The position numbers and the translations under genes are program-made. A stretch of DNA of 64,000 nucleotides from an uncultured Alphaproteobacteria bacterium. Its GTDB lineage: Bacteria > Pseudomonadota > Alphaproteobacteria > Caulobacterales > Caulobacteraceae. Positions within the stretch are counted from its first letter, which is position 1. Every line of letters begins with the position of its first letter. A model generated the notes under the pieces. That model made no database searches, had not been told where the DNA came from, and saw only the letters and a program-made list of their open reading frames with translations. Of the stretch, positions 2,396-30,681 are shown piece by piece. The DNA is taken from positions 1-64,000 of the forward strand of contig CAIJOB010000006.1 of assembly GCA_903822175.1 (NCBI GenBank). Direction: 5' to 3'.

Positions 2396-3526
2396 TCAGG
2401 CGGCGGCCGCGGCCGCGTCGTCCGCCTCATCAGCGGCGGTGTTCTCACCCAGCGCGGCCTGCAGGGCGGCCAGCAGGTGTTCCGGCTTCATGGGCTTTTC
2501 GACCACCCCGTTCATGCCGGCGGCGAGGTAGCCCTCGGCGTCCTCCGGCTCGGCGTTGGCGGTCAGCGCGATGATCGGCACCTGGCCCGGGAAGCCCGGC
2601 AGGGCGCGGATGGCCCGGGTGGCGGCGACGCCGTCCATCACCGGCATCTTGATGTCCATGAGGATCAGGTCGAAGCGGCCGCCGCGGGCGGCTTCCAGGG
2701 CCTCGGCGCCGTCGTTGGCGCTTTCGCAGGTGCAGTCGAACATTTCGCAGAGCGCCTGGGCGACCATGCGGTTGGTGGCGTTGTCGTCGACCACCAGCAC
2801 ATGGGCGGACCGCTCGGCCTCCTGCGGCTCCTCGGCCGGTGTCTCCGAGGCGATCGGCAGCAGCAGGTCGAAGATCACCGTCTCCGAGCCGCCGCCGGCG
2901 CCTTCGTTGCGCAGCGTGCCGCCCAGGCCGTCGACGATCTGGCGGGCGAGCATGACGCCGATGGCGACTTCCAGGCCAAAGCGGGCCTCCACGTCGCGGA
3001 CGCGGGCCTCAAGGTCCTGGGATTCCCAGGCGGGATCGCGGGCGCCGCGGACGCGGCCTTCGAGGCGGACCCCCTCAGGGGTGACAATGGTGCGGACGCT
3101 GGCCTCGACGGCGCCGCGGCGCATGCTGGCCACAGCCTCGCCGACGAAGCCGCCGAACACCTGCAGCAGGCGGTCGCGGTCGCCGAGCGCGCAGGCGTCG
3201 GGATCGCCGTCGTAGGAGACCAGCAAGGTGACGCCACTCATCGCCGCGGCCGGCTGCCAGCGGCTGTGGACCTCGTCCACCAGCTCGCGCAGGCGCAGCG
3301 GCGCGGGGTTGAGGGTCAGGCCGTCGGTGGTGACTTTGCGCAGGTCGACAGCGGCTTCCAGCATGCGGCGCACGCCGTCGGCCATTTCCGCCGCGCTGGA
3401 GGCGCAGGACTGCGCGTCGGCGGTCAGGCGCTGACGCGCAAGCTGATCGGTCAGCGCGAGGATCCCTTCCATCTGCTGAAAGATCTCGCCAGTGACGCGG
3501 TCGAAGAAAAACGTTTGCAGAGACAT
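2396..3526 (-). CDS. Histidine kinase-like protein with C-terminal receiver domain
   Basis: REC domain [12 protein letters not shown]...[13 protein letters not shown]; ATPase-like region upstream with degenerate motifs; start taken at MSLQTFFF (the ORF extends to 3574). Confidence 0.85.
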
Positions 3527-3664
3527 GAACAGCCGGAGGTTGCGCAACGCGACGTGAGCCCACCATGGCGCCAAGCGCTTGCGGAGAGGTTAAGTGACAG
3601 CGGTGACATGTTGATCGGGGCTCGCGGTCTTCCGATCCGGCCGGCGATCGCGCATATGAGGGCG

Positions 3665-4402
3665 ATGAACGACCCCAACAGCGAGCGTGGGAACGGCGCC
3701 CTGGTGCTGTTCTCGGGCGGGCAGGACTCCAGCGTCTGCCTGGCCTGGGCGCTTGAGCGCTACCCCCATGTGGAAACGGTGGGGTTCGACTACGGCCAGC
3801 GCCATGCCGTCGAGCTGGAGGCGCGGGTGGCGGTGCGCGCCGCGGTCGCCGCGCGGTTCCCGAGCTGGGCGCCCCGGCTCGGCGACGACCACATGATGGA
3901 TATTTCCAGCTTCGGGGCGGTCGCCGAGTCCGCACTGACCGCCGACCGGGCCATTGAGATGACCGCCAAGGGCCTGCCGTCGACCTTCGTGCCGGGCCGC
4001 AACCTGGTGTTCTTCGTCTATGCTGCGGCGCTGGCCGACCGGCGGGGGCTGAAGGCGCTGGTGGGCGGCATGTGCGAGACCGACTTCTCCGGCTATCCGG
4101 ACTGCCGGCGCGACACGCTGGACGCCATGCAGACGGCGCTGAACCTGGGGATGGCGCAGGACTTCGTCATCGAGACGCCGTTGATGAGCCTCACCAAGGC
4201 GGAGACCTGGGCCCTGGCCAAGGGCTTGGGTGGCGAGGCGCTGGTGGAGCTGATCGTGGCGGACAGCCATACCTGTTACCTGGGCGACCGCGAGACCTTG
4301 CACCCCTGGGGCTATGGCTGCGGGACCTGCCCGGCGTGCGAGCTGCGGGCGCGGGGCTGGGAGGGCTGGGTCGCCGAGGATCGGCCGGCGCTGCGCCCAT
4401 GA
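3665..4402 (+). CDS. queC: 7-cyano-7-deazaguanine synthase QueC
   Basis: PP-loop [17 protein letters not shown]-terminal Cys cluster [10 protein letters not shown]. Confidence 0.93.
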
Positions 4403-5034
4403 GCAGCTATGCCGTCAAAGAGATCTTCCTGACCCTGCAGGGCGAGGGCGGCCAGGCGGGCCGGCCGGCGGTGTTCTGCCGTTTCGCCGGCTGCAACCTC
4501 TGGTCGGGACGCGAGCAGGACCGGGCGCAGGCGGTCTGCAATTTCTGCGACACCGATTTCGTCGGCATGGACGGCGTGGGCGGCGGCCGTTTCGCTGACG
4601 CCCAGGCCCTGGCCGACGCGGTCGAGGCCGCCTGGGAAGGCGGGGCGGAGAACCGGCTGGTGGTGCTGACCGGCGGCGAGCCGCTGCTGCAGCTCGATGA
4701 GGCGCTGATCGCGGCGCTGCACGGACGGGGCTTTTCGCTGGCGCTGGAGACCAACGGGACGCTTCCGGTCCCCGAAGGCGTCGACTGGATCTGCGTCAGC
4801 CCGAAGGCCGATGCGCCGGTGGTGCAGACCCATGGCCAGGAGCTGAAGCTGGTCTACCCGCAGTCGAAGGCGCTTCCGGAGCGGTTCGAGAGCCTGGATT
4901 TCCAGCGGTTCCTGCTGCAGCCGATGGATGGGCCGGACCGGGCGGCGAATACCCAGGCCGCGATCGCCTATTGCTTGGCCCATCCCCGCTGGCGGCTGAG
5001 CGTTCAGACTCACAAGTATCTCGGCATCGCCTGA
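4399..5034 (+). CDS. queE: 7-carboxy-7-deazaguanine synthase QueE (radical SAM)
   Basis: [32 protein letters not shown]...[14 protein letters not shown] overlap with queC. Confidence 0.93.
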
Positions 5035-5085
5035 GGAAACGGCTATTGGGGCGCGCTTCTTCCGCTTGATCCCTATCTAGGCCCG

Positions 5086-5457
5086 ATGCGTTCCAGGATT
5101 TTCGAGATCACCAAGGCCGCGACCTTCGACGCGGCGCACCACCTGCCGGACGGCCCGGCAGGCCCCTACACGCGCCTGCACGGCCACTCGTTCAAGGTCG
5201 AGGCGACGGTGCGCGGCGAGGAACAGGGCGCCATCGGCTGGGTGGCGGACCTGGGCGAGCTGGATCGCGTGCTGCGGGCGGCGGCGGGCGAGCTGGACCA
5301 CGGGATGCTCAACGAAAAGCCCGGCCTGGAAAGCCCGACGCTAGAACACCTGTGCCTGTGGTTCGCTGAGCGCCTGACGCCGGCGTTCCCGGGCCTGTCG
5401 CGGATCGTGGTGTCGCGGCCCACGGTGGGCGAAAGCTGCGCGCTGAACCTGGGCTAG
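5086..5457 (+). CDS. queD: 6-carboxytetrahydropterin synthase QueD
   Basis: FDAAHHLPDGPAG...LHGHSFKVEATV, DHGMLNE, SPTLEHL. Confidence 0.92.
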   Translation: MRSRIFEITKAATFDAAHHLPDGPAGPYTRLHGHSFKVEATVRGEEQGAIGWVADLGELDRVLRAAAGELDHGMLNEKPGLESPTLEHLCLWFAERLTPAFPGLSRIVVSRPTVGESCALNLG

Positions 5458-5681
5458 TTGCCGCTTTTGTCGTCTTTTTTTCCGGGGAGGACGGCTCCGG
5501 CGACGTCGCCGACGCCGTGGGCGGTCGCGCCGATGACCTTGCCGGTGACGCCGATGGCGGTTCCGGTGACGGCGACAGCCGCGCCGCCGACCGCACCGGC
5601 CGCGCCAAGCACCAGGCAGCCGGAGAGCATGACAGCGCAGGCGCTGAGCGCGGCGGCGGTCATCAAGGTCTTGTAGGTCAT
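5454..5681 (-). CDS. Small lipoprotein, Gly/Ala/Val-rich, unknown function
   Basis: MTYKTLMTAAALSACAVMLSGC lipobox followed by repetitive GAVGGAAVAVTGTAIGVTGKVIGA. Confidence 0.65.
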   Translation of the reverse strand: MTYKTLMTAAALSACAVMLSGCLVLGAAGAVGGAAVAVTGTAIGVTGKVIGATAHGVGDVAGAVLPGKKDDKSGN

Positions 5682-5744
5682 GGTGGCGGAACTCCCCGGC
5701 GAGGCGGCCAGCATGCGCCGGAAAAGCTTACGAAAGAAGGCGCC

Positions 5745-6260
5745 CTAGAGTTCGTGGATTGCGGCTTTTCGCCCTTGCTTGTCGCCGTCGCGGCGGAAGG
5801 GGCCCGGGTGGTTGGGGTCGTTGCGGCGCCGCCGGTCGGGGCCGAAGTAGGCCTCGGTCTTCACGTAGGAGCGCGGGTTCTCGACGATCTGATTGATCCG
5901 CTCGACCACGCCGCGGCCCGTGAGCGGCTTGGCCAGGAACTCGTTGACGCCGGCGTTCCGCGCCTCGTTGACGCGGGCCATGGTGGAATGGCCGGTGATC
6001 ATGATCACCGGGCACATCTGGTTGGGGCTGTCGGGCGAGCGGCGCAGGAGGCGAACGAAGTCGATGCCGTCCAGGGGCTGCATCGCTAGGTCGGTCATGA
6101 TGATGTCGATGCCCTGGCCCTTCATCATTTTCAGGGCGTGGGCGCCGTCGCTGGCCTCGTAGATGTGGCGCACGCCGACCGCCTTCAGAATCTCGGTCAA
6201 CATCACCCGCATGTGGCGGTTGTCGTCGACAATCAGGATTTTCAGCAGGTCGTAGCGCAA
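5745..6260 (-). CDS. Response regulator (receiver domain)
   Basis: ILIVDDNRHMRVMLTEIL...DIIMTDLAMQPLDGIDF...VIMITGHS...FLAKPLT. Confidence 0.92.
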   Translation of the reverse strand: MRYDLLKILIVDDNRHMRVMLTEILKAVGVRHIYEASDGAHALKMMKGQGIDIIMTDLAMQPLDGIDFVRLLRRSPDSPNQMCPVIMITGHSTMARVNEARNAGVNEFLAKPLTGRGVVERINQIVENPRSYVKTEAYFGPDRRRRNDPNHPGPFRRDGDKQGRKAAIHEL

Positions 6261-6473
6261 AGGCGCTCCAAGGTGAGTCCAGCCGGGGCGGCCGCTATGT
6301 CGGAAACAGGCTTATCAGGGTGCGGCTGATTACGTTCGGGAAATACTAACGGTCAACGACAATCTCGGCTGATCCGTCGTCATCCTAAGTCCCTGTAGAA
6401 ATTCGAATATCCAGTATGCAAACAGCGCGTGCAGATGTCAGCGCTGTCACCAACCTCAGGTCGTCGGCGGGGC

Positions 6474-7565
6474 TCAGGTCCCGCCGGTCTGGCCGCGGTG
6501 ACGCAGGTAGGCGTCGGCCAGCACGCAGGCGACCATGGCCTCGACCACCGGCACGGCGCGGATGCCAACGCAGGGGTCGTGGCGGCCCTTGGTGCGCAGC
6601 TCGATCTCCTCGCCGGCCTCGTTGATCGATTGGCGCGGGGTGAGGATCGAGGAGGTGGGCTTGAAGGCGACGCGGGCCGTCACCGGCTGGCCGGTGGAGA
6701 TGCCGCCCAGGATGCCGCCAGCGCTGTTCGAGAGGAACAGGGGGCCGTCATTGCCGGCGCGCATCTCGTCGGCGTTTTCTTCACCAGTGAGGGCGGCGGC
6801 GGCGAAGCCCGCGCCGATCTCGACACCCTTGGCGGCGTTGATCGACATGAGGGCTGCGGCCAGTTCGGCGTCGAGCTTGCCGTAGATCGGCGCGCCCCAG
6901 CCGGCCGGGGCGCCTATGGCCTCGACCGCGACGATGGCGCCGGTCGATGAGCCGGCCTTGCGGATCTTTTCCAGGTGCTCTTCCCAGACCGGGACCATGT
7001 CCGGGTCGGGGCACCAGAAGGGGTTGTCCTGCGTCGTGCTGAAGTCGATGCGGTCAGGCGCGACGGCGTGCGGGCCGATCTGCACGACGGCGCCCCGGAT
7101 GGTGACGCCCGGGATGATCAGCCTGGCCACTGCGCCGGCGGCGACGCGGGCCGCGGTCTCGCGGGCCGATTGCCGGCCGCCGCCGCGATAGTCGCGCACG
7201 CCGTACTTGGCCCAGTAGCTGTAGTCGGCGTGGCCGGGCCGGAAGGCGGTGGCGATCTCCGAATAGTCGCGGCTGCGCTGGTCGACGTTCTCGATCAGCA
7301 TGGAGATCGGCGTGCCGGTGGTGACCTGATCCGGGTGGCGCTCGTCGGAGAACACGCCGGAGAGGATCTTCACCGCGTCCGGTTCCTGGCGCTGGGTGAC
7401 GAACTTGCCCTGGCCCGGCCGGCGCTTTTCCAGCCACTGCTGGACGTCGGCCTCGGTGAGCTTGATCCCGGGCGGGCAGCCGTCGACCACGCAGCCCAAT
7501 GCCGGCCCGTGGCTCTCGCCCCAGGTGGTCACGCGGAAGAGGTGGCCGAACGTATTGTGCGACAT
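6474..7565 (-). CDS. aroC: Chorismate synthase
   Basis: [62 protein letters not shown]. Confidence 0.97.
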
Positions 7566-7631: not shown

Positions 7632-8714
7632 CTAAGGGGGCCCCATCACGCGGGCGAAGAAGACCAGGGCGGTCTGCAGGGCGGTGACGTGCGTCGGCCC
7701 TTGTGGCGCCTCAGTCTGGCAGATGGCGATGCGGGCGCGGGCCTGCGGACTGCACGACGCCAGGAAATCGTAGTGGCCGACGCCGGGGAGCGCCTTGAGC
7801 TGGGCGCGGGGGATGGCGCGGGCGGCGGCCCCGCCATTGGTGTGCGGCGAGGCGACCGGATCGGCGTCGCCGAGCACGATCGAGACCGGCGTGGTCATGG
7901 CGTTGAGGCTGGCCGGATCGAGCGCCTGGACGAAGGCCGGCGCCATGGCGAAGACCGCCTTCACGCCGCGGATCGCATGGTCGTCGCCGGCCCGCGCTGC
8001 GTCCGCCGAGAGCTCCGGCGTGGCCAGGGCCTCGGCGGCCTGGGCCTGGGTCACCGGGAATTCCGGCTGCGGCTTGCAGACTCCGTCGTCGGGATGCGCC
8101 GTGCAGAACTCCCGCAGGCGCGCCAGGTCGAACCGCGCGCCGCCGGCCTCCAGCGCGGTCAGGCCGCCGGTGGCGAAGCCGGCGACGCCCAGGCGGCGAA
8201 GGTCCAGGTGCTGGCCGATCACCGGATCGGCCTTGGCCGCCTCCAGCGCCGCCTCGAGATCGCCGGGCAGGTCCCAGAGCAGCACCGCGCCCGGCAGGGT
8301 GGGCTTGCCGAAGTTGTTGTTGCCCGGATTGTCCACGGCGATGACCACATAGCCCTGCTGAGCGAGCACGGTGGTGAACCAGCCCATCATCCGCGCCGAG
8401 CCACCGAAGCCGTGGGCGAACAGGATGACCGGGCGGCGCCGGTCGTCGGCGAAGGCGGCGTTGGGCGCGGAGGCGCCGACGAAGAACAGCGGCTGGCCCG
8501 CCGGCCCAAGATCGAGCGAGGTTTCCTCCGAACCCCCGGCGGCGGGATACCATACGGTGACCTGAACCTGCGGCTTGTGGTCGTCGTTGCGCAGGGCCGC
8601 GGTGGGATTGGTGGCGACCAGATGGCGCTCTCCCGCCGGATAGTCCTCGGCGACGGCGGCGCCCGCCAGGACGAGAGCCGTCGCGGCGGCGGCCAGGAGG
8701 ATCGGGAGGCGCAT
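7632..8714 (-). CDS. Secreted alpha/beta hydrolase (dienelactone hydrolase / PAF-acetylhydrolase-like)
   Basis: Signal peptide MRLPILLAAAATALVLAGAAVAE; PVILFAHGFGGSARMMGWF; start taken at the ATG inside the longer ORF 7632..9734. Confidence 0.85.
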   Translation of the reverse strand: MRLPILLAAAATALVLAGAAVAEDYPAGERHLVATNPTAALRNDDHKPQVQVTVWYPAAGGSEETSLDLGPAGQPLFFVGASAPNAAFADDRRRPVILFAHGFGGSARMMGWFTTVLAQQGYVVIAVDNPGNNNFGKPTLPGAVLLWDLPGDLEAALEAAKADPVIGQHLDLRRLGVAGFATGGLTALEAGGARFDLARLREFCTAHPDDGVCKPQPEFPVTQAQAAEALATPELSADAARAGDDHAIRGVKAVFAMAPAFVQALDPASLNAMTTPVSIVLGDADPVASPHTNGGAAARAIPRAQLKALPGVGHYDFLASCSPQARARIAICQTEAPQGPTHVTALQTALVFFARVMGPP

Positions 8715-8812
8715 GAGAGGAGGCGGTCTTTCGGGGAGCGGTCTTTCGTCGAATCGCGAGCGAACCCTAGGCGAGCGGTCGCCGCGGCGCCCTCTAAATC
8801 CGCTGTGGCCGC

Positions 8813-9904
8813 CTAAGGCGCGCCGAGCGTGCGCTTGAAGAAGGCCAGCGCCATGTCGATCGTCGCCTGGTGCGTCGGGTCCTGCGGGACCTTCGACATG
8901 CAGAGCGGGATCTTGCCGAGGGCGTCGGCGCCACAGGTGGCCAGGAAGTCGTAGTGGCCGACGCCGGGCAGCACCTTCAGCTGCGCGTGCGGGATGGCCT
9001 TGGCGGCGACCAGGCCATTGGTATCCGGCGGGGCTACCTGATCGGCGTCGCCCAGGATGATAGCCACCGGAACCTTGATCCCGGCGAGGCTGGCGGGGGT
9101 CATCTGCTGGATGACCGCTGGAACCATGACGAAGGCGCCGCGCAGGCCGGGGATTGAGTGGTCGTCGCCGGCATGAGCGGCTTCGCCGGCCAGTTCGGGC
9201 GAGGCCAACACCTTGCGGGCGTCGTCCATGGTCAGCGCGAACTCCTTCTGCGGCAGGCAGATGCCGTCCATCGGATGAGCGAGGCAGAAGGTCAGCAGGC
9301 GCTGGATTTCGACCCGCGCGCCGAGCGAGACCAGCGAGGTGTAGCCCCCGGCCGACATGCCGGAAACGCCGACCCGGCGCATGTCCATGTGCGGGCCGAT
9401 GGCCGGATCGGCCTTGGCGGCGTCGAGCGCTGCCCGCAGGTCCTGCGCCCGGTCCCACAGCAGGGTCGCGCCGGCCGCGGTCATCTTGTCGAGGCCGTTG
9501 TTGCCGGGATGGTCGACGGCGACCACCACATAGCCGGCGCGGGCCAGGGGCACGCCGAACCAGCCCATCATCCGCGCCGTGCCGCCATAGCCGTGGGAGA
9601 GCAGGATCACCGGCCGGGGCTTGGAGTCGGCGAAGGCCGCGCCCTGGGCGACGGCGCCGACGATGAACATCGGCTTGCCGGGCGGCCCCAGGTCGATGCG
9701 CTCTTCCTTGGCGTCGGCCGCGGCCGGATACCAAACCGTCACCCGCACCGTCGGCTTATGCTCGGCGTCGCGCAGGGCGGCGGTCGCGTCGGTGGTGGTC
9801 AGATGGCGCTCGCCGACCGGGCCGGCCTGGGCGGCGAGGGCGAAACCGACGGCGACCAGCGTGGCCAGCAGGCCAAGACCCAATCTCATGATCGCCCTCC
9901 GCAT
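8813..9904 (-). CDS. Secreted alpha/beta hydrolase, tandem paralog of the preceding gene
   Basis: PVILLSHGYGGTARMMGWFGVPLARAGYVVVAVDHPGNN; strong end-to-end similarity to 7632..8714. Confidence 0.87.
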   Translation of the reverse strand: MRRAIMRLGLGLLATLVAVGFALAAQAGPVGERHLTTTDATAALRDAEHKPTVRVTVWYPAAADAKEERIDLGPPGKPMFIVGAVAQGAAFADSKPRPVILLSHGYGGTARMMGWFGVPLARAGYVVVAVDHPGNNGLDKMTAAGATLLWDRAQDLRAALDAAKADPAIGPHMDMRRVGVSGMSAGGYTSLVSLGARVEIQRLLTFCLAHPMDGICLPQKEFALTMDDARKVLASPELAGEAAHAGDDHSIPGLRGAFVMVPAVIQQMTPASLAGIKVPVAIILGDADQVAPPDTNGLVAAKAIPHAQLKVLPGVGHYDFLATCGADALGKIPLCMSKVPQDPTHQATIDMALAFFKRTLGAP

Positions 9905-9974
9905 CGTTGCGGCGCGATCCTAGGCGCGTGGCGCCGGGGCGCAGCTTAATTCGCGGTCATTTAGCCTAGGAGGC

Positions 9975-10673
9975 CTAGGCGGCCCAGGCGGCGGCGAAGC
10001 GGCGGAGCAGGGTGCGCGCGGCCGAGTCGGCCTGACCGGCCTTGGCCGGGGCGAGGCGCAGGAACAGGTGGCCCTGGCGGTGGCGGCCGCGGGCGGGGAG
10101 GCCCTGGCCCTGCAGCCGGACCAGCTTGCGCTCGGCGGCCTTCTTGGTCAGCCAGACGACGCGGCGGCCGAGCGGGGTTTCGACGGCGACCCGGCCGCCC
10201 TCGGTCAGCAGGCGCGGCGCGACGCTGGCGGTGATCCACAGGTCATCGCCGCGCACCAGCATCTCCGGCGAGCCGGTCAGCACCACGGCCAGCTCGGATA
10301 CGCCGACCCGCACGGTGTCGCCGCTGCGCAGGCCGGGCGGCAGCTTCACGCGGACATGGCGCCCGTCGCCCAGGACGTGGTCTGCCGAGCCGCCGCGCAA
10401 GGCGATCAGCGGATCGATGCGCAGTTCCGTCGGCTCCGGCGGGCGCGGCGCTGGCGGCTGAATGATGCGGTCGGAGCCGGTCTGGACGATCTGCAGGCGG
10501 TGATAGGCCTCGACCACCTGGCGGAACCGCTCGGCGCCGCCGCCGGCCCGGTCGGGGTGGGCGCGCTTGGCGGCCTCGCGGAAGGCGCGGCGCAGTTCGC
10601 TGGCGGAGAACAGCGGGCCGACGCCCAGCACCTCGCGCGCGGCCTTCAGGGAAATCTTGGTCTCGGACGCCAT
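9975..10673 (-). CDS. J-domain protein with DnaJ C-terminal-like region
   Basis: REVLGVGPLFSASELRRAFREAAKRAHPDRAGG (HPD motif); LPPGLRSGDTVRVG; GHLFLRL. Confidence 0.85.
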   Translation of the reverse strand: MASETKISLKAAREVLGVGPLFSASELRRAFREAAKRAHPDRAGGGAERFRQVVEAYHRLQIVQTGSDRIIQPPAPRPPEPTELRIDPLIALRGGSADHVLGDGRHVRVKLPPGLRSGDTVRVGVSELAVVLTGSPEMLVRGDDLWITASVAPRLLTEGGRVAVETPLGRRVVWLTKKAAERKLVRLQGQGLPARGRHRQGHLFLRLAPAKAGQADSAARTLLRRFAAAWAA

Positions 10674-10744
10674 CGGGGCGGACAGTCGCCGCGACATGGT
10701 CAATGACGCGTTAAATTGGACCCGGATCGGGGTAGAGTCGCGCG

Positions 10745-11563
10745 ATGTCGGACATTTCACAGTTGCTGGAACGCGCCAACCTCGCCCTCCTGGCGCGTCG
10801 CCTGGACGAGGCCGTGCATCTGGCGGCCGGCGTCCTGCAGGCGGACCCGGAGAATGTCGCCGCCGGCCAGATCCAGGGTACGGCGCTCTTGATGCAGGAC
10901 CGCTCCGAAGAGGCCATTGAACCGCTGCAGCGCGCGGCGGCGCGCAGCGGCGACCCCAACATCGAGACCCTGCTCGGCCGGGCGCTCTCCAACGTCGGGC
11001 GCCGAGAGGACGCGCTGAGCACGCTGCGGCAGGCCACGCGGCGGCAGCCGCCGTATCCCCAGGCCTTCCTGGAACTGGGCGATCAGCTGAGCGCGGCGGG
11101 GCGGTTCGAGGAGGCCGCGACGGCCTTCGCCGAAGGCATTGCGCTCAACCCGGACGCCTTGGTCCTGCGGGTCGGTCAGGCCTACCTGCATCTCAAATGC
11201 AACGACCGCGCCCAGGCTCGGAGCCAGTTCGAGGCGCTGCGCGCCGCGGCGCCGGAGCGCTATGACACGCTCGTTGGCCTCGCCTGGGTGCTGGCGGCGG
11301 ATGGGGGCTACGCCCAGGCCGCCGAGCTTTTCCGCCAGGCGCTGGCGGCGCGGCCGACCGATGCGGTGGTGCGGCTGGAGCTCGCCAAGTGCCTGCTGGA
11401 GCTTGGCCAGCGCGCGGCCGGAGAGGCGGAGCTGCGGACCGCGACCGGCGGCGACGCCGCCAGCGCCGGACCGGCCATTCTGGCGCTCACCGCGACGCCG
11501 CATGGCCGGATGTTCCTGCGGCCCAGCGCGGCGATGACGTTCCTGGGGCTCAGCGCCGGCTAG
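10745..11563 (+). CDS. Tetratricopeptide repeat protein
   Basis: Repeated TPR-like helices (NRAL/AGRFEEAATAFAEGIALNPDAL...). Confidence 0.8.
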   Translation: MSDISQLLERANLALLARRLDEAVHLAAGVLQADPENVAAGQIQGTALLMQDRSEEAIEPLQRAAARSGDPNIETLLGRALSNVGRREDALSTLRQATRRQPPYPQAFLELGDQLSAAGRFEEAATAFAEGIALNPDALVLRVGQAYLHLKCNDRAQARSQFEALRAAAPERYDTLVGLAWVLAADGGYAQAAELFRQALAARPTDAVVRLELAKCLLELGQRAAGEAELRTATGGDAASAGPAILALTATPHGRMFLRPSAAMTFLGLSAG

Positions 11564-12276
11564 GCGCGGAACCAGCGGCGGTAGACGCCTTTTTCGCGGG
11601 CGATGGTGGCCATCAGGCCGTGGGCGCGCTGGGCGTCATCGTCGGTGAACACCTCGGTGCGTGCCGTCCAGGTCTCGCGCTTCACCGGGAAGCACTGGGC
11701 GATGGGCGTGCCCTTTGGCAGGACGCCGCAGAAACCCTCGTCGTGCCAGTGAGCCGGGAAATGGATCCAGCTCTCGTGGTAGCGGTCGCTATCGACCAGG
11801 CCGGAGAGCGTCGTGAACGGCAGGTCGAAGCGGTTCACCGGATGGGTGAACATCAGCGCGTAGCCCTCGGGCGCCTGGATCGTCCAAAGATTGTGGAACT
11901 TGACCAGGAAGCGGTCGTCGTCGGCGAGCGGCGTGCCGGTCACCTGGGCGGCGTCGTGGAAGGCGATGGGGCTGCGGGCGAAGCCGACGGCGCCGCCGGG
12001 CGGCAGTTCCTCGTCCCAGCTGAACTCGCCGTTTTCGACGCGGAGATCGCAGATCAGCGGGATCAGGAAGCCGGTGGTCATGGCGTCGATGAACGGCGGG
12101 CAGCGCTTGACCGTGTCGTCGTCCTCGCCGGCCATGGGGCTGAAGGCCTGCTGCGGCATGGTCTTCAGCCAGTCGGGCAGGCCCTGGGCGGCCGGAACCG
12201 GCGGCGGCAGCCAGCCCTCCAGCTCCGCGGGGCAGCGGAAGGTGAGGGTTTGGGCTGGATGATCTGGTGACGCCAT
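11560..12276 (-). CDS. Conserved hypothetical protein, no recognised catalytic motif
   Basis: Long ORF with protein-like composition: [32 protein letters not shown]. Confidence 0.6.
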
Positions 12277-25319: not shown

Positions 25320-25485
25320 AAGATTTGGAACCACGGAAAACACGGAAAGAGCACGGAAAGAAGGGAGGCCGCGACGGTCGTGGTTGATGGAATCGCGCGC
25401 TTTGCGCGCAGCGCGATCATCTCTTCGGCCTCGGAAATGAGCGTCTCTTTCCGTGCTCTTTCCGTGGTTCTCTTTTCTTCCGCTA
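25320..25485. repeat. Intergenic palindromic element, family A copy 1 (CACGGAAA-type inverted repeats)
   Basis: Left end AAGATTTGGAACCACGGAAAACACGGAAAGAGCACGGAAAG, right end TTTCCGTGCTCTTTCCGTGGTTCTCTTTTCTTCCGCTA; both ends match copy 2 at 63511-63613 in opposite orientation. Confidence 0.85.
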
Positions 25486-27258
25486 CCGCACCCGGGTCGG
25501 GTCGAGGACCATGGCTCCCTGGCTGCGCAGGCGGGCCTGGCCGAGTTCGTCGATGATGCCCTGAGCGCGTGGGTCGCCGAACACCCAGGCGGCGGCGGCT
25601 AGGGTCTTGGCGGACGAGGCTGAGACGCCCAGAATCTTCTGCACCGCCTCGATCGGCGAGCCGGAGGGGGACATGCGCTTCAGGCGCGCCTCGCCGGTGA
25701 TGCCGGCGAGGGTCTTGGCCTTGGCGACGGCGTCGTAGAAGCCGCCGAGCTGATCGACGAGGCCGAGCTCCTTGGCCTGGGCGCCGGTCCAGACGTGGCC
25801 CTTGGCGATCTCGCGCACCCGGTCAGGCGACAGCTTGCGGCCGGCGGCGACGCGCTGGACGAAGTTGTCGTAGATGCGGTCCATCCAGTGGGAGAAGGCG
25901 GCGCGCTGGGCGGGCGTGAACTCCTTGCCCATGCCAAAGCCGCCGGCGTAGTCGCCACCGACGCTGAGCTGGCGCACGTCGACGCCGAAGCGGCCGAGCG
26001 CGTCGCCCAGCGCGAACTTGCCGCCGAACACGCCGATCGAGCCCGTGAGCGTCGTGGGCTCGGCGATGATGGCCGAGGCTTCCGACGAGATCCAATAGCC
26101 GCCGGACGCGCCATAGGTGCCCATGGAGACCACCACCGGCTTGCCGGCCGCCTTGGCGGCGCGGATGGCGGCGAGGATCTCCTCCGACGCGGTGTCGGAG
26201 CCGCCGGGCGAGTTGAGGCGCAGGACGATGGCCTTCACGTCCTTGGCCTTGATGGCGTCGTAGAAGGCGTCGGCTATGTCGTCGGCGTAGATGCTGGAGC
26301 CGCGGGAGAACGGGTTGCCGCCCCCGTCCTTGCCGTCGACGATGTCACCCTCGGCCTCGATCACCGCGACCGCCGGACCCAGGCCCCGCTCGCGCGGCGC
26401 GCGGCCGTGGGCGTAGTCCTCGAAGTCCATCAGTTCGGCGCCTTCGCCGGCCTGTTTCAGCAGGGCCGCCTGGGCCTCGTGAACCTGGCCCACATGGTCG
26501 ATCAGATGCTTGTCCAGCGCCTCGTCGGAGAGATAGGGGCCGGCCTCCAGGGTGGCTTTGAGCACGGCCGGGTCGAGCTTGCGGTCGGCGGCGGCGGCGG
26601 CGATGTCGGTGGTGTAGACGCTGGTCATCCACGACAGCTCGGCGGACCGGTGGGCAGGCGTGTAGTCGTCGTAGAGGTAGCCGTTGACCGCGTTCTTGTA
26701 CTCGTAGCGCTGCTCGTAGTCGGCATGGACGCCGAACTTGTCGAAGGCGCGCTTGAAGAACAGGTCCTCGTTGGAGATGCCGGTGACCTGGAACGAGGCG
26801 CCGGGCTGCATCCAGAGGTCGTCGGAGGCCGCGCCGATCATGTAGGTCGCGGTCACTACGCCGGAGGGATAGAGCCCCTGGCTGTGGGCGATCATCGGCT
26901 TGCCCGAGGCGCGGAAGTGCCGGATTCCCAAGCGCAGTTCGTCGGCCAAGCCCGGCTCGACGCCGCCTTCGGGGAGGCGGATCAGGACGCCTTTGACCCG
27001 GTCGTCCTTTTCGGCGCGGCGCAGGCCCTCGAGGATCGACATGGCGGAGTGGCCCCGCCGCGCGAAGCCCGCCAGCACGCTCTGCGCCGACTGGTCGGTC
27101 AGCGGGTCGCGCAGGTCGAGCTCCAGCACCGTCTTGGCCGGCGTCGGCGCGGGGCCGGCGGCGGCGGCGGCCATGGAGATCAGCACGAAGGGCACGCCGA
27201 TCAGGAAAATCAGCAGGCCCGCGAAGACCCCGGCCGCGGTGATCAGGAACTGCTTCAT
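25483..27258 (-). CDS. sppA: Signal peptide peptidase SppA, 67K type
   Basis: IVLRLNSPGGSDTASEEI, VVSMGTYGASGGYWISS, TLTGSIGVFGG; N-terminal TM helix. Confidence 0.94.
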   Translation of the reverse strand: MKQFLITAAGVFAGLLIFLIGVPFVLISMAAAAAGPAPTPAKTVLELDLRDPLTDQSAQSVLAGFARRGHSAMSILEGLRRAEKDDRVKGVLIRLPEGGVEPGLADELRLGIRHFRASGKPMIAHSQGLYPSGVVTATYMIGAASDDLWMQPGASFQVTGISNEDLFFKRAFDKFGVHADYEQRYEYKNAVNGYLYDDYTPAHRSAELSWMTSVYTTDIAAAAADRKLDPAVLKATLEAGPYLSDEALDKHLIDHVGQVHEAQAALLKQAGEGAELMDFEDYAHGRAPRERGLGPAVAVIEAEGDIVDGKDGGGNPFSRGSSIYADDIADAFYDAIKAKDVKAIVLRLNSPGGSDTASEEILAAIRAAKAAGKPVVVSMGTYGASGGYWISSEASAIIAEPTTLTGSIGVFGGKFALGDALGRFGVDVRQLSVGGDYAGGFGMGKEFTPAQRAAFSHWMDRIYDNFVQRVAAGRKLSPDRVREIAKGHVWTGAQAKELGLVDQLGGFYDAVAKAKTLAGITGEARLKRMSPSGSPIEAVQKILGVSASSAKTLAAAAWVFGDPRAQGIIDELGQARLRSQGAMVLDPTRVR

Positions 27259-27361: not shown

Positions 27362-28021
27362 CTAAACGCGGGCCGAGGGCTTCTGGACGGGGGTCTTGGC
27401 GACCTTTCGGCGCAGCTTGGCGACATCGCCGGCGCTGACGGCGGGGGCGGAATTGCCCCAGCTGTTGCGGACATAGGTGGCGACGGCGGCGACCTGGGCG
27501 TCGGTCAGCTTCCAGCCGTAGCTCGGCATGGAGAGCGGCGTGGGCCGGGCGTCGGTGGCGACCGTCTGGGTTCCCGACAGGATGAAGCGGATCACCGTCG
27601 TGGGGTCGGTGGACTGGGTCACCGCCGCGCCGGGCAGAGGCGGGAAATAGGTCGGCGCGGCCTTGCCGTCGACGGCGTGGCAGGCGGAACACTCGTCGAC
27701 ATAGATCGCCTGACCGGCGGCCATGACCTTGGGGTTTAGCGTCACCGCGGCGGGTTCGGCAGCGTGGGTCGGCTGAGATTTCAGATAGGCTGCGACGGCG
27801 GCAAGGTCGGGGTCGGCCATCTGCGAGGTGGAGTAGTGGACGACGTCGGCCATGGAGGCCGAGGCGTTGGCGCGGCTGTTGCGGCCGGTCTTGAGATATT
27901 CCGCGACGTCGGGCGCGGACCAGGCGCCGAGACCCCGGCGCGCATCGGCGTTGATCGCTGGCGCGAACCAGTTGTCGAGCTTGCCGCCCTCCAGCGCGTG
28001 GCCGGCCTTGTCGCCGCCCAG
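27362..28021 (-). pseudogene. 5'-truncated cytochrome c (alcohol/aldehyde dehydrogenase cytochrome c subunit-like), C-terminal part only
   Basis: Heme motif CSACH; coding-like frame continues upstream of the called start (LGGDKAGHALEGGKLDNWFAPAINADARRGLGAWSAPDVAEYLKTGRNSRANASASM...) to about 28021, then similarity stops. Confidence 0.75.
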
Positions 28022-28284
28022 GCGACGTGGGCGGGCGGCTCATGCGCGGAGACTTCGCGATCGGCGGCGCCACCCCCGTCAACACCTCCGGCGGCCTGGT
28101 GTCCAAGGGCCATCCAGTGGGCGCCACCGGGATCGCCCAGCTCTACGAGCTGATCGTGCAGCTGCGGGGGGAGGCGGGCGCCCGCCAGGTGGAGGGGGCC
28201 CAGATCGCCATCGCCGAGAATGGCGGCGGTTACCTCCGCGGGGAGGAAGCGGCCTGTGTCGTAACCATCCTGGAGAAGGGGTGA
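28022..28284 (+). pseudogene. 5'-truncated thiolase / acetyl-CoA acetyltransferase, C-terminal ~86 aa only
   Basis: GGATPVNTSGGLVSKGHPVGATGIAQLYELIVQLRGEAGARQVEGAQIAIAENGGG...CVVTILEKG is the canonical thiolase C-terminus; about 300 N-terminal residues are absent. Confidence 0.82.
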
Positions 28285-28420
28285 GGCCCTAGGGCGATCT
28301 GGCCGCAGACGAACTCGGCCGCCGGAGAACCGGATGCGCGGGCGCGCACACGCCTAAGCGTCGGACTTCTTGTGGGTATTGGCGGGAAAGGGTCTCACCC
28401 GAGGTTGGGGGGGAGATGAT

Positions 28421-28497
28421 TGGTCGGAGTGGCAGGATTTGAACCTGCGACCCCTGCGTCCCGAACGCAGTGCTCTACCAGACTGAGCCACACTCCG
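28421..28497 (-). tRNA. tRNA-Pro (anticodon CGG), CCA encoded
   Basis: RC folds as CGGAGTG acceptor, anticodon arm CTGCG-TTCGGGA-CGCAG, T-arm GCAGG-TTCAAAT-CCTGC, CACTCCGACCA. Confidence 0.95.
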
Positions 28498-28682: not shown

Positions 28683-28756
28683 TGGGGAATGGTGTAATGG
28701 TAACACTGCGGTTTTTGGTACCGTCATTCTAGGTTCGAGTCCTAGTTCCCCAGCCA
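28683..28756 (+). tRNA. tRNA-Gln (anticodon TTG)
   Basis: TGGGGAA acceptor, GCGGT-TTTTGGT-ACCGT anticodon arm, CTAGGTTCGAGTCCTAG T-arm, TTCCCCAGCCA. Confidence 0.94.
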
Positions 28757-28851: not shown

Positions 28852-30681
28852 CTAGGACGCGGGCTTGGGGGCTCCGGGGGCCGAGGGCGCAGCTGGGGCC
28901 TCGTCGCGCTCGAATTCCTCGATGCGGCGCTCCATGCGCTCCATGCGTTCCTTGAACTCCGGCGTGTTGAAGCGGGCTCCGGCTTCGGCGGCGCGGGCGA
29001 TGCGGGCCTTGAACTCGGGTGAATTGACCATCTTCTCTACGTCGGCGGCGTGGGCCTGGATGGCGGCGATGCGCGCCTTGAATTCCGGGGAATTGACCCG
29101 GGCCTCGGCCTCGGCGCCGCGGGCGGCGGCCGCGGCGATCTTCGCCTTGAACTCGGCGGAGTTGACCCTCTTCTCGACGTCGGCGGCGTGGGCCTGGGCG
29201 GCGGCGATCCTCGCCTTGAACTCCGGCGAGTTCACGCGCGCCTCGGCCTCGGCGGCGCGGGCGGTCGCCGCGGCGATCCTGGCCTTGAATTCCGGCGAAT
29301 TGACCCGGGCGACGGCGGCTGCGGCGCGGGCCTCGGCCGTCTTGACCTGGTCTTCCCACGCTTTCTGCTGCTCGGGCGAGGGGTCCTTGGCGTCGTCGGT
29401 GTAGACGGTGAACGTGCGGCCGTCGGAGGCCTTGAAGGTGTGGCGGAAATCGCCGCCGTCGCCGTTCATGATCACGTCGCCGTCGTTGATGATGATGCCG
29501 CGATGCTTGCGGGCGGAAGGCGCGACGGCCTGGGGCTTCACGGCATCCTTCTCCGCTTGGCTGACGGCGGTCTTGGCGGCCGGCGAGGCCGGGGCCAGTG
29601 GCTGGGCGGTCACCGGGGCCGGGCTCGCCGGCTGGGCGAAGACCGGGGTGACGTGCAGCAGGGCGGCTGAGCCCAGCAGGCCGGCGCCGATAGCGGCCAG
29701 GCCGCAGAGGCGGGCGGCGCGCAGAGCCGGGGCTTCGATATCCTTGGGTTTCATCAGGTGCATAAGACGATCCTCCAGATCGCTGCGGCCGAACAGGCCG
29801 ACCGCCAGGGCCGCATGCAGCGGCGCCGGCGTGGTGTTGACGGGACCCCCCAGGGTCTGTGAGCCCAGGCTTTGGGCAAGCGAGACAAGCCGCCTCGCAT
29901 AGGTCTTGGATGAGCCGAGTGCCTCGGCGGCCATGGCGTCGCAGGCCAGTTCGCGGCTCTTGGCGACGCCGGCCTTCAGGGCCATCAGCGCCGGATGCCA
30001 GCAGACCGGCAGGGTGAGCACCTCGCAGGCGAGGTTCACCGCATAGTCGTGGCGGATGACGTGGGCCATCTCGTGCAGCAGGGCGGCGCGCAGGTCTTCG
30101 TCCGTTACGGCGAGGCCGTCTGGGATCAGGATCACCGGCGAGAGCGCGCCGACCACAGCGGGGCTGGAAACCCGCGCGGAGCTGCGGACCGGGGCGGCGA
30201 TGCGGCCATGGCCTTGGGCGAGACGTTCGAGGTCGCGAGCGACGCAGGGCGGCAGGACGACCGGGCGCGACTGGCGGACCAACCGGCGGGCGGCCAGGGC
30301 GGCGAGACTGAGGCGCACGATCAACAACAGCACCACGGCGGCGGAAAGCACGGCCATGGCCCAGGCCGACCCGGCGGAGAGCTCCAGGGCGGGCTTGGCG
30401 GTCGGCAGCAGGACGTCGGGGCTGGGTGTGGCGATCTCGAAGGCCGCGGCGGCGACCGCATCGGCGGGCACGCGGGCCACGCTGGGCGCGGCGTGCGGTA
30501 GGAGCGCCGCCAGCGACACCGCCGGCAGGACCGCGGCGATGCCCAGGAACAGCAGCCACAAGCGATTGCGGGCCTGCGGCGAGAGGCTGCCGAAGCGGGA
30601 GACGAGCAGCGCGCAGAGCGCCACCACCGGGATCTGCCAGGCGGCGTTGACCAGATAGCCCGCGAGAAGCTCACGCATCAC
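28852..30681 (-). CDS. M56 family (BlaR1/MecR1-like) membrane metallopeptidase with repetitive C-terminus
   Basis: Multiple TM helices; HEMAHVIRHDYAVNL zinc site; overlaps blaI-like gene start by ATGA; C-terminal VNSPEFKARI repeats. Confidence 0.9.
   Translation of the reverse strand: MMRELLAGYLVNAAWQIPVVALCALLVSRFGSLSPQARNRLWLLFLGIAAVLPAVSLAALLPHAAPSVARVPADAVAAAAFEIATPSPDVLLPTAKPALELSAGSAWAMAVLSAAVVLLLIVRLSLAALAARRLVRQSRPVVLPPCVARDLERLAQGHGRIAAPVRSSARVSSPAVVGALSPVILIPDGLAVTDEDLRAALLHEMAHVIRHDYAVNLACEVLTLPVCWHPALMALKAGVAKSRELACDAMAAEALGSSKTYARRLVSLAQSLGSQTLGGPVNTTPAPLHAALAVGLFGRSDLEDRLMHLMKPKDIEAPALRAARLCGLAAIGAGLLGSAALLHVTPVFAQPASPAPVTAQPLAPASPAAKTAVSQAEKDAVKPQAVAPSARKHRGIIINDGDVIMNGDGGDFRHTFKASDGRTFTVYTDDAKDPSPEQQKAWEDQVKTAEARAAAAVARVNSPEFKARIAAATARAAEAEARVNSPEFKARIAAAQAHAADVEKRVNSAEFKAKIAAAAARGAEAEARVNSPEFKARIAAIQAHAADVEKMVNSPEFKARIARAAEAGARFNTPEFKERMERMERRIEEFERDEAPAAPSAPGAPKPAS
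28960..29304 (-). repeat. In-frame tandem repeat, 69-bp/23-aa period, five units in exact register (VNSPEFKARIAAA...)
   Basis: V codon of each unit at 29304, 29235, 29166, 29097, 29028 (constant 69-bp spacing), followed by a divergent shorter unit FNTPEFKERM. Confidence 0.9.

Follow-up and report, generated by a model that had tools for sequence, protein, structure and literature searches.

Organization of the Locus

The window analyzed here is a stretch of 64,000 nucleotides, comprising bases 1-64000 of a 73.7-kb contig in an assembly of 4.02 Mb (42 contigs, 96.5% complete, 0.02% contamination). Between an intact gene for an sppA-like signal peptide peptidase and a pair of tRNA genes lie the 3' ends of two further genes, one encoding a three-haem cytochrome c subunit on the minus strand and the other an SCP2-type thiolase on the plus strand (Table 1). 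The two meet at a junction in the interior of the contig, 397 bp from the tRNA-Pro gene, in agreement with the original prediction of about 400 bp.

Table 1. Features between sppA and the tRNA-Pro/tRNA-Gln pair of the window.
Feature	Position	Strand	Basis
sppA-like signal peptide peptidase (S49), intact, conserved left neighbor	25483..27258	-	Peptidase_S49 PF01343, E 2e-68
3' remnant of three-haem cytochrome c subunit gene	27362..28022	-	Last 219 codons, one CxxCH; full-length homologs in L080, L081, L082, L083
Junction	28018..28022		CCAGG common to both homologies; position-by-position comparison and alignment
3' remnant of SCP2-type thiolase gene	28018..28284	+	Last 88 codons and stop
Tail between thiolase stop and tRNA-Pro flank	28285..28350		No similarity found in 390 family genomes
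Conserved 3' flank of tRNA-Pro	28351..28420		Common to G002 and G019
tRNA-Pro (CGG), conserved right neighbor	28421..28497	-	tRNA-Pro/tRNA-Gln region matched in 95/101 genus genomes
tRNA-Gln (TTG)	28683..28756	+	Same tRNA pair region

The Cytochrome c Remnant and Its Operon in Relatives

The minus-strand frame had been proposed to encode a cytochrome c and to run open to about 28021. It is open from the junction to its stop at 27362 with no internal stop codon, it matches the Cytochrom_C profile (PF00034, E 2e-18), and its homology ends at 28022, which bears the proposal out. A query covering positions 27855-28180 gave four strong matches among 101 genomes of the genus, all stopping at the junction. 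Those in G065 (85% DNA identity), G071 (80%) and G088 (80%) end at 28022, and that in G061 (78%) at 28018. The full-length cytochromes of relatives are 427-435 residues long (427 in G061, 435 in G065) and contain three CxxCH motifs. The window copy consists of the last 219 residues with the last of the three haems, one CxxCH being kept, and has lost its N-terminal part, the region of the export signal included, along with the first two haem sites. Its dN/dS relative to G065 is 0.30 (0.129/0.43), and values among all compared pairs range from 0.23 to 0.39. As the ratio of the remnant is not raised and its frame contains no stop, the truncation is probably recent on the time scale of species divergence, or else the fragment is still under some constraint.

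In genus relatives the cytochrome gene closes an operon for a three-subunit GMC dehydrogenase, located next to sppA. Genes for a 247-residue Gluconate_2-dh3 protein and a 589-residue GMC oxidoreductase come before it, on its own strand, in both G061 and G065, and tblastn also found the three genes in G071 and G088. The full-length operon adjoins sppA in G061, G065 and G088. The complete copies in G061 and G065 occupy positions 3197-6998 of locus L083 and 7814-11634 of locus L080, respectively. A more distant version (47-71% amino acid identity) occurs at other places in G019 and G064. In sequence, the cytochrome and GMC subunits are related to the cytochrome and large subunits, respectively, of fructose, glucose and alcohol dehydrogenases of solved structure. 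Because of these structural relatives and the GMC_oxred and Gluconate_2-dh3 matches, the intact genes are assigned to a three-subunit, FAD-dependent, cytochrome-linked dehydrogenase operon.

All three subunits of such sugar or alcohol dehydrogenases (the fructose, glucose and gluconate type) are present in the intact operon of G061 and G065, and a GMC FAD protein, a Gluconate_2-dh3 protein and a three-haem cytochrome are encoded together in L083. The window, in contrast, keeps only the C-terminal half of the cytochrome. It lacks the GMC subunit, the small subunit and two haem sites, and so does the genome as far as sequences as close as this family are concerned. The remnant cannot give rise to a dehydrogenase.

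The Thiolase Remnant

The plus-strand piece belongs to the SCP2-type thiolase family (PRK08256 lipid-transfer protein/SCP2-thiolase type 1, PDB 6hsj). Its 88 codons match these proteins well, including the GHP motif, whereas the first 319 residues are absent. Its alignment with a 408-residue thiolase from locus L091 covers residues 320-406 of that protein, and it matches only positions 71-137 of the 144 in Thiolase_C_1 (PF22691, E 2e-20) and positions 320-392 of the 394 in PRK08256, the latter scoring 84.9 bits where the cut-off is 436. The homology had been expected to cover only the last part of the gene, and it does so, extending over the last 88 of about 408 codons. The window does not encode a complete, two-domain thiolase but the C-terminal end only; the piece lacks the N-terminal domain, which in this family bears the nucleophile cysteine.

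The closest sequences lie in genus g15 of the same family (77-79% DNA identity), and the thiolase of a Brevundimonas MAG has 80% amino acid identity to the window piece. Within the genus of the window the best match is in G058, with 76% identity over 198 bp. For the ~66 bp that follow the stop codon (28285-28350), a search of 390 family genomes gave no match, the surrounding matches either ending at 28275 or beginning at 28345.

The Junction

Full-length homologs exist for both remnants, and the homology of each stops at the same point, as had been claimed for two genes truncated at their 5' ends. One detail of the earlier description is to be refined, the start of the thiolase homology at about 28024: it begins with the Pro-Gly codons at 28018-28023. 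With the cytochrome homology ending at 28022, the two overlap by 5 bp (CCAGG). In a position-by-position comparison that leaves aside the G061 row, which was out of register, 5/5 of these bases fit the closest cytochrome relatives (G065 and G071) and 4/5 fit the five thiolase relatives. At the level of sequence comparison, the loss of the 5' part of the operon, the loss of the 5' part of the thiolase gene and the exact position of the junction are all demonstrated.

Such junctions resemble those of bacterial illegitimate (short-homology) recombination, in which unrelated sequences are joined at a few common bases and the intervening DNA is lost. The window differs from these in that its ancestral state is deduced from relatives rather than observed, and its overlap of 4-5 bp is at the short end. 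Work on Salmonella had to set cut-offs of at least 7-9 bp to tell real junctions from chimeric reads (PMC3411829), so an overlap of this size does not by itself exclude an artifact. It is in keeping with illegitimate recombination and too short to exclude a chimera.

The same junction in close relatives would have pointed to short but complete genes, and a DNA search of 101 genus genomes, including the window's own, found it in none of the other 100. The idea of head-to-head short genes conserved in relatives was accordingly discarded. An IS- or repeat-mediated event was also rejected, the repeats near the junction being weak and short and none being positioned to explain it, as was a break in composition, GC lying at 0.60-0.76 throughout without a clear step.

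The Interval Between sppA and tRNA-Pro

Both outer flanks of the locus are conserved. The sppA product has 82-87% amino acid identity to those of the closest relatives (G065, G064, G088, G104, G085, G061 and G083). In G011 the equivalent gene (G011:C1:2035987-2037745) is read in two frames, which suggests a frameshift or a sequencing error. The gene order in G061 is sppA, cytochrome, GMC oxidoreductase, small subunit, tRNA-Pro, tRNA-Gln and M56 peptidase, with the same flanks as the window and a complete operon filling the gap from sppA to tRNA-Pro. In the window the 5' part of the operon is gone, and ~330 bp with the thiolase end stand in its place. On the other side of the tRNA pair, the window's M56 peptidase (BlaR1-type, 28852-30681, minus strand) contains a C-terminal run of repeats at 28996-29340, of the type VNSPEFKARIAAA, whose DNA copies are about 70% identical among themselves and to the copy in G061. 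The window's tRNA-Pro reads CCCTGCG...CGCAGTG where five aligned relatives have CCCCGCG...CGCGGTG; both sides of one stem position differ, which looks like a paired compensatory change.

The two flanks lie on one contig in 63 genomes of the genus, the window included, and in all 63 the order and orientation of sppA relative to tRNA-Pro/tRNA-Gln are constant. The gap between them ranges from 102 bp to 117 kb; it is at most 400 bp in 11 genomes, between 400 bp and 6 kb in 29, larger in 23, and 1142 bp by the same measure in the window. The contents vary as well: G083 has a sensor kinase here, G064 a TonB receptor, a sulfotransferase and other genes, and G112 an acyl-CoA dehydrogenase and a large oxidoreductase. 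Because the gap differs so widely in size and content between conserved flanks, it is a variable, cargo-bearing site at which genes have often been gained and lost in the genus.

In its conserved flanks and range of sizes the interval is like the hot-spot regions known beside tRNA genes. Unlike in those regions, the tRNA 3' end was not seen to be duplicated in any locus examined, and the few interval genes that were scanned included no integrase. A second copy of the 3' half of tRNA-Pro (an att repeat) longer than 11 bp was absent from 14 loci, some of which cover the interval only in part, and no integrase was found among 10 proteins from intervals of up to 12 kb. An island inserted at the tRNA-Pro 3' end was consequently rejected for the loci examined, which carry no att-like second copy. 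It may be, and we offer this tentatively, that the tRNA-Pro(CGG)/sppA interval is a genus-wide hot spot in which one metabolic cargo after another is acquired and lost again, with no recognizable integrase or tRNA att repeat involved, the double remnant of the window being one record of this turnover.

Origin of the Double Remnant

How did the ends of two unrelated genes come to face each other at this site? The reading that we consider quite likely is that of an in-place deletion, in which a thiolase-bearing segment was acquired beside the operon and a single illegitimate deletion then removed both 5' ends. The ancestor would have carried the genes for the small subunit, the GMC-type FAD subunit and the three-haem cytochrome c as an operon on the minus strand beside sppA. 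A plus-strand segment with the SCP2-type thiolase would have lain between the operon and tRNA-Pro; this resident step is inferred, the search having turned up no relative so arranged, and no genus genome has cytochrome and thiolase matches close together on one contig. One illegitimate recombination at 4-5 bp of microhomology (CC.GG) may then have deleted one continuous stretch that began at codon 208 of the cytochrome and reached codon 319 of the thiolase, taking with it the genes for the GMC and small subunits and any further DNA that lay in between. With the thiolase directly next to the operon, the deletion would measure at least about 4.1 kb, and what remains would be two non-functional 3' fragments.

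The original prediction had left the choice between a deletion or rearrangement and an assembly misjoin, and the evidence favors the former: the flank order is constant in 63 genomes and the missing halves occur nowhere in the assembly. That the cytochrome gene comes from a three-gene operon, with two more genes lost, and that the site varies across the genus went beyond the original prediction. The N-terminal part of the cytochrome was not found elsewhere in the 42 contigs (only a paralog with 44% identity on contig C4), nor was that of the thiolase (at most a 34% match). A search with the G065 operon DNA yielded nothing beyond the remnant, the C4 paralog and a weak hit of 62 bp. The missing parts are thus absent from the rest of the genome as assembled (96.5% complete). 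Since both outer flanks are neighbors in relatives, it is unlikely that distant contigs were joined into a chimera, and with the missing halves also absent from the assembly this was rejected as the main reading. More generally, a misjoin or collapse of a real genome in which both genes are intact appears improbable. The assembly is a draft in 42 contigs at 96.5% completeness and the microhomology at the junction is short, which would suit such an artifact, but the outer flanks are true neighbors, stated contamination is 0.02%, and a misjoin would also have to lose both 5' halves together with two further operon genes. Somewhat less improbable, though still unlikely, is that the thiolase was never resident and that a foreign piece of ~270-330 bp was captured as filler DNA during repair of a break in the operon, in one step with the loss of the operon 5' part. 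The shortness of the thiolase-derived segment (28018 to at most 28350), its nearest relatives in genus g15 and the Brevundimonas MAG (77-80% identity) and the lack of any other SCP2-type thiolase in the genome are all in keeping with such a capture. However, the piece ends at a natural stop codon at a site of whole-gene turnover, which fits a resident gene and one deletion, and filler DNA needs two new junctions where the deletion needs one.

That 27362-27853 (minus strand, 163 residues) and 28027-28284 (plus strand, 85 residues) are functional genes expressed as small proteins is very improbable indeed. Both frames are open and the dN/dS of the cytochrome fragment is not raised, as such genes would have it, but the same junction occurs in no other of the 101 genus genomes and a promoter-like site was not found, albeit in a weak test. 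Neither fragment is expected to function, because the cytochrome is without its export region and two of its three haem motifs, and the thiolase is without the N-terminal domain with the nucleophile cysteine, as judged from knowledge of the family. Overall, the locus has the look of a real but ordinary deletion scar, set in an interval of variable size and content next to a tRNA gene.

Implications

The locus matters mainly for annotation: the labels cytochrome gene and thiolase gene would be wrong for the two frames, which should be entered as pseudogene remnants, and this three-subunit dehydrogenase should not be listed among the capacities of the strain. The site may also serve to illustrate how genes turn over next to a conserved pair of tRNA genes.
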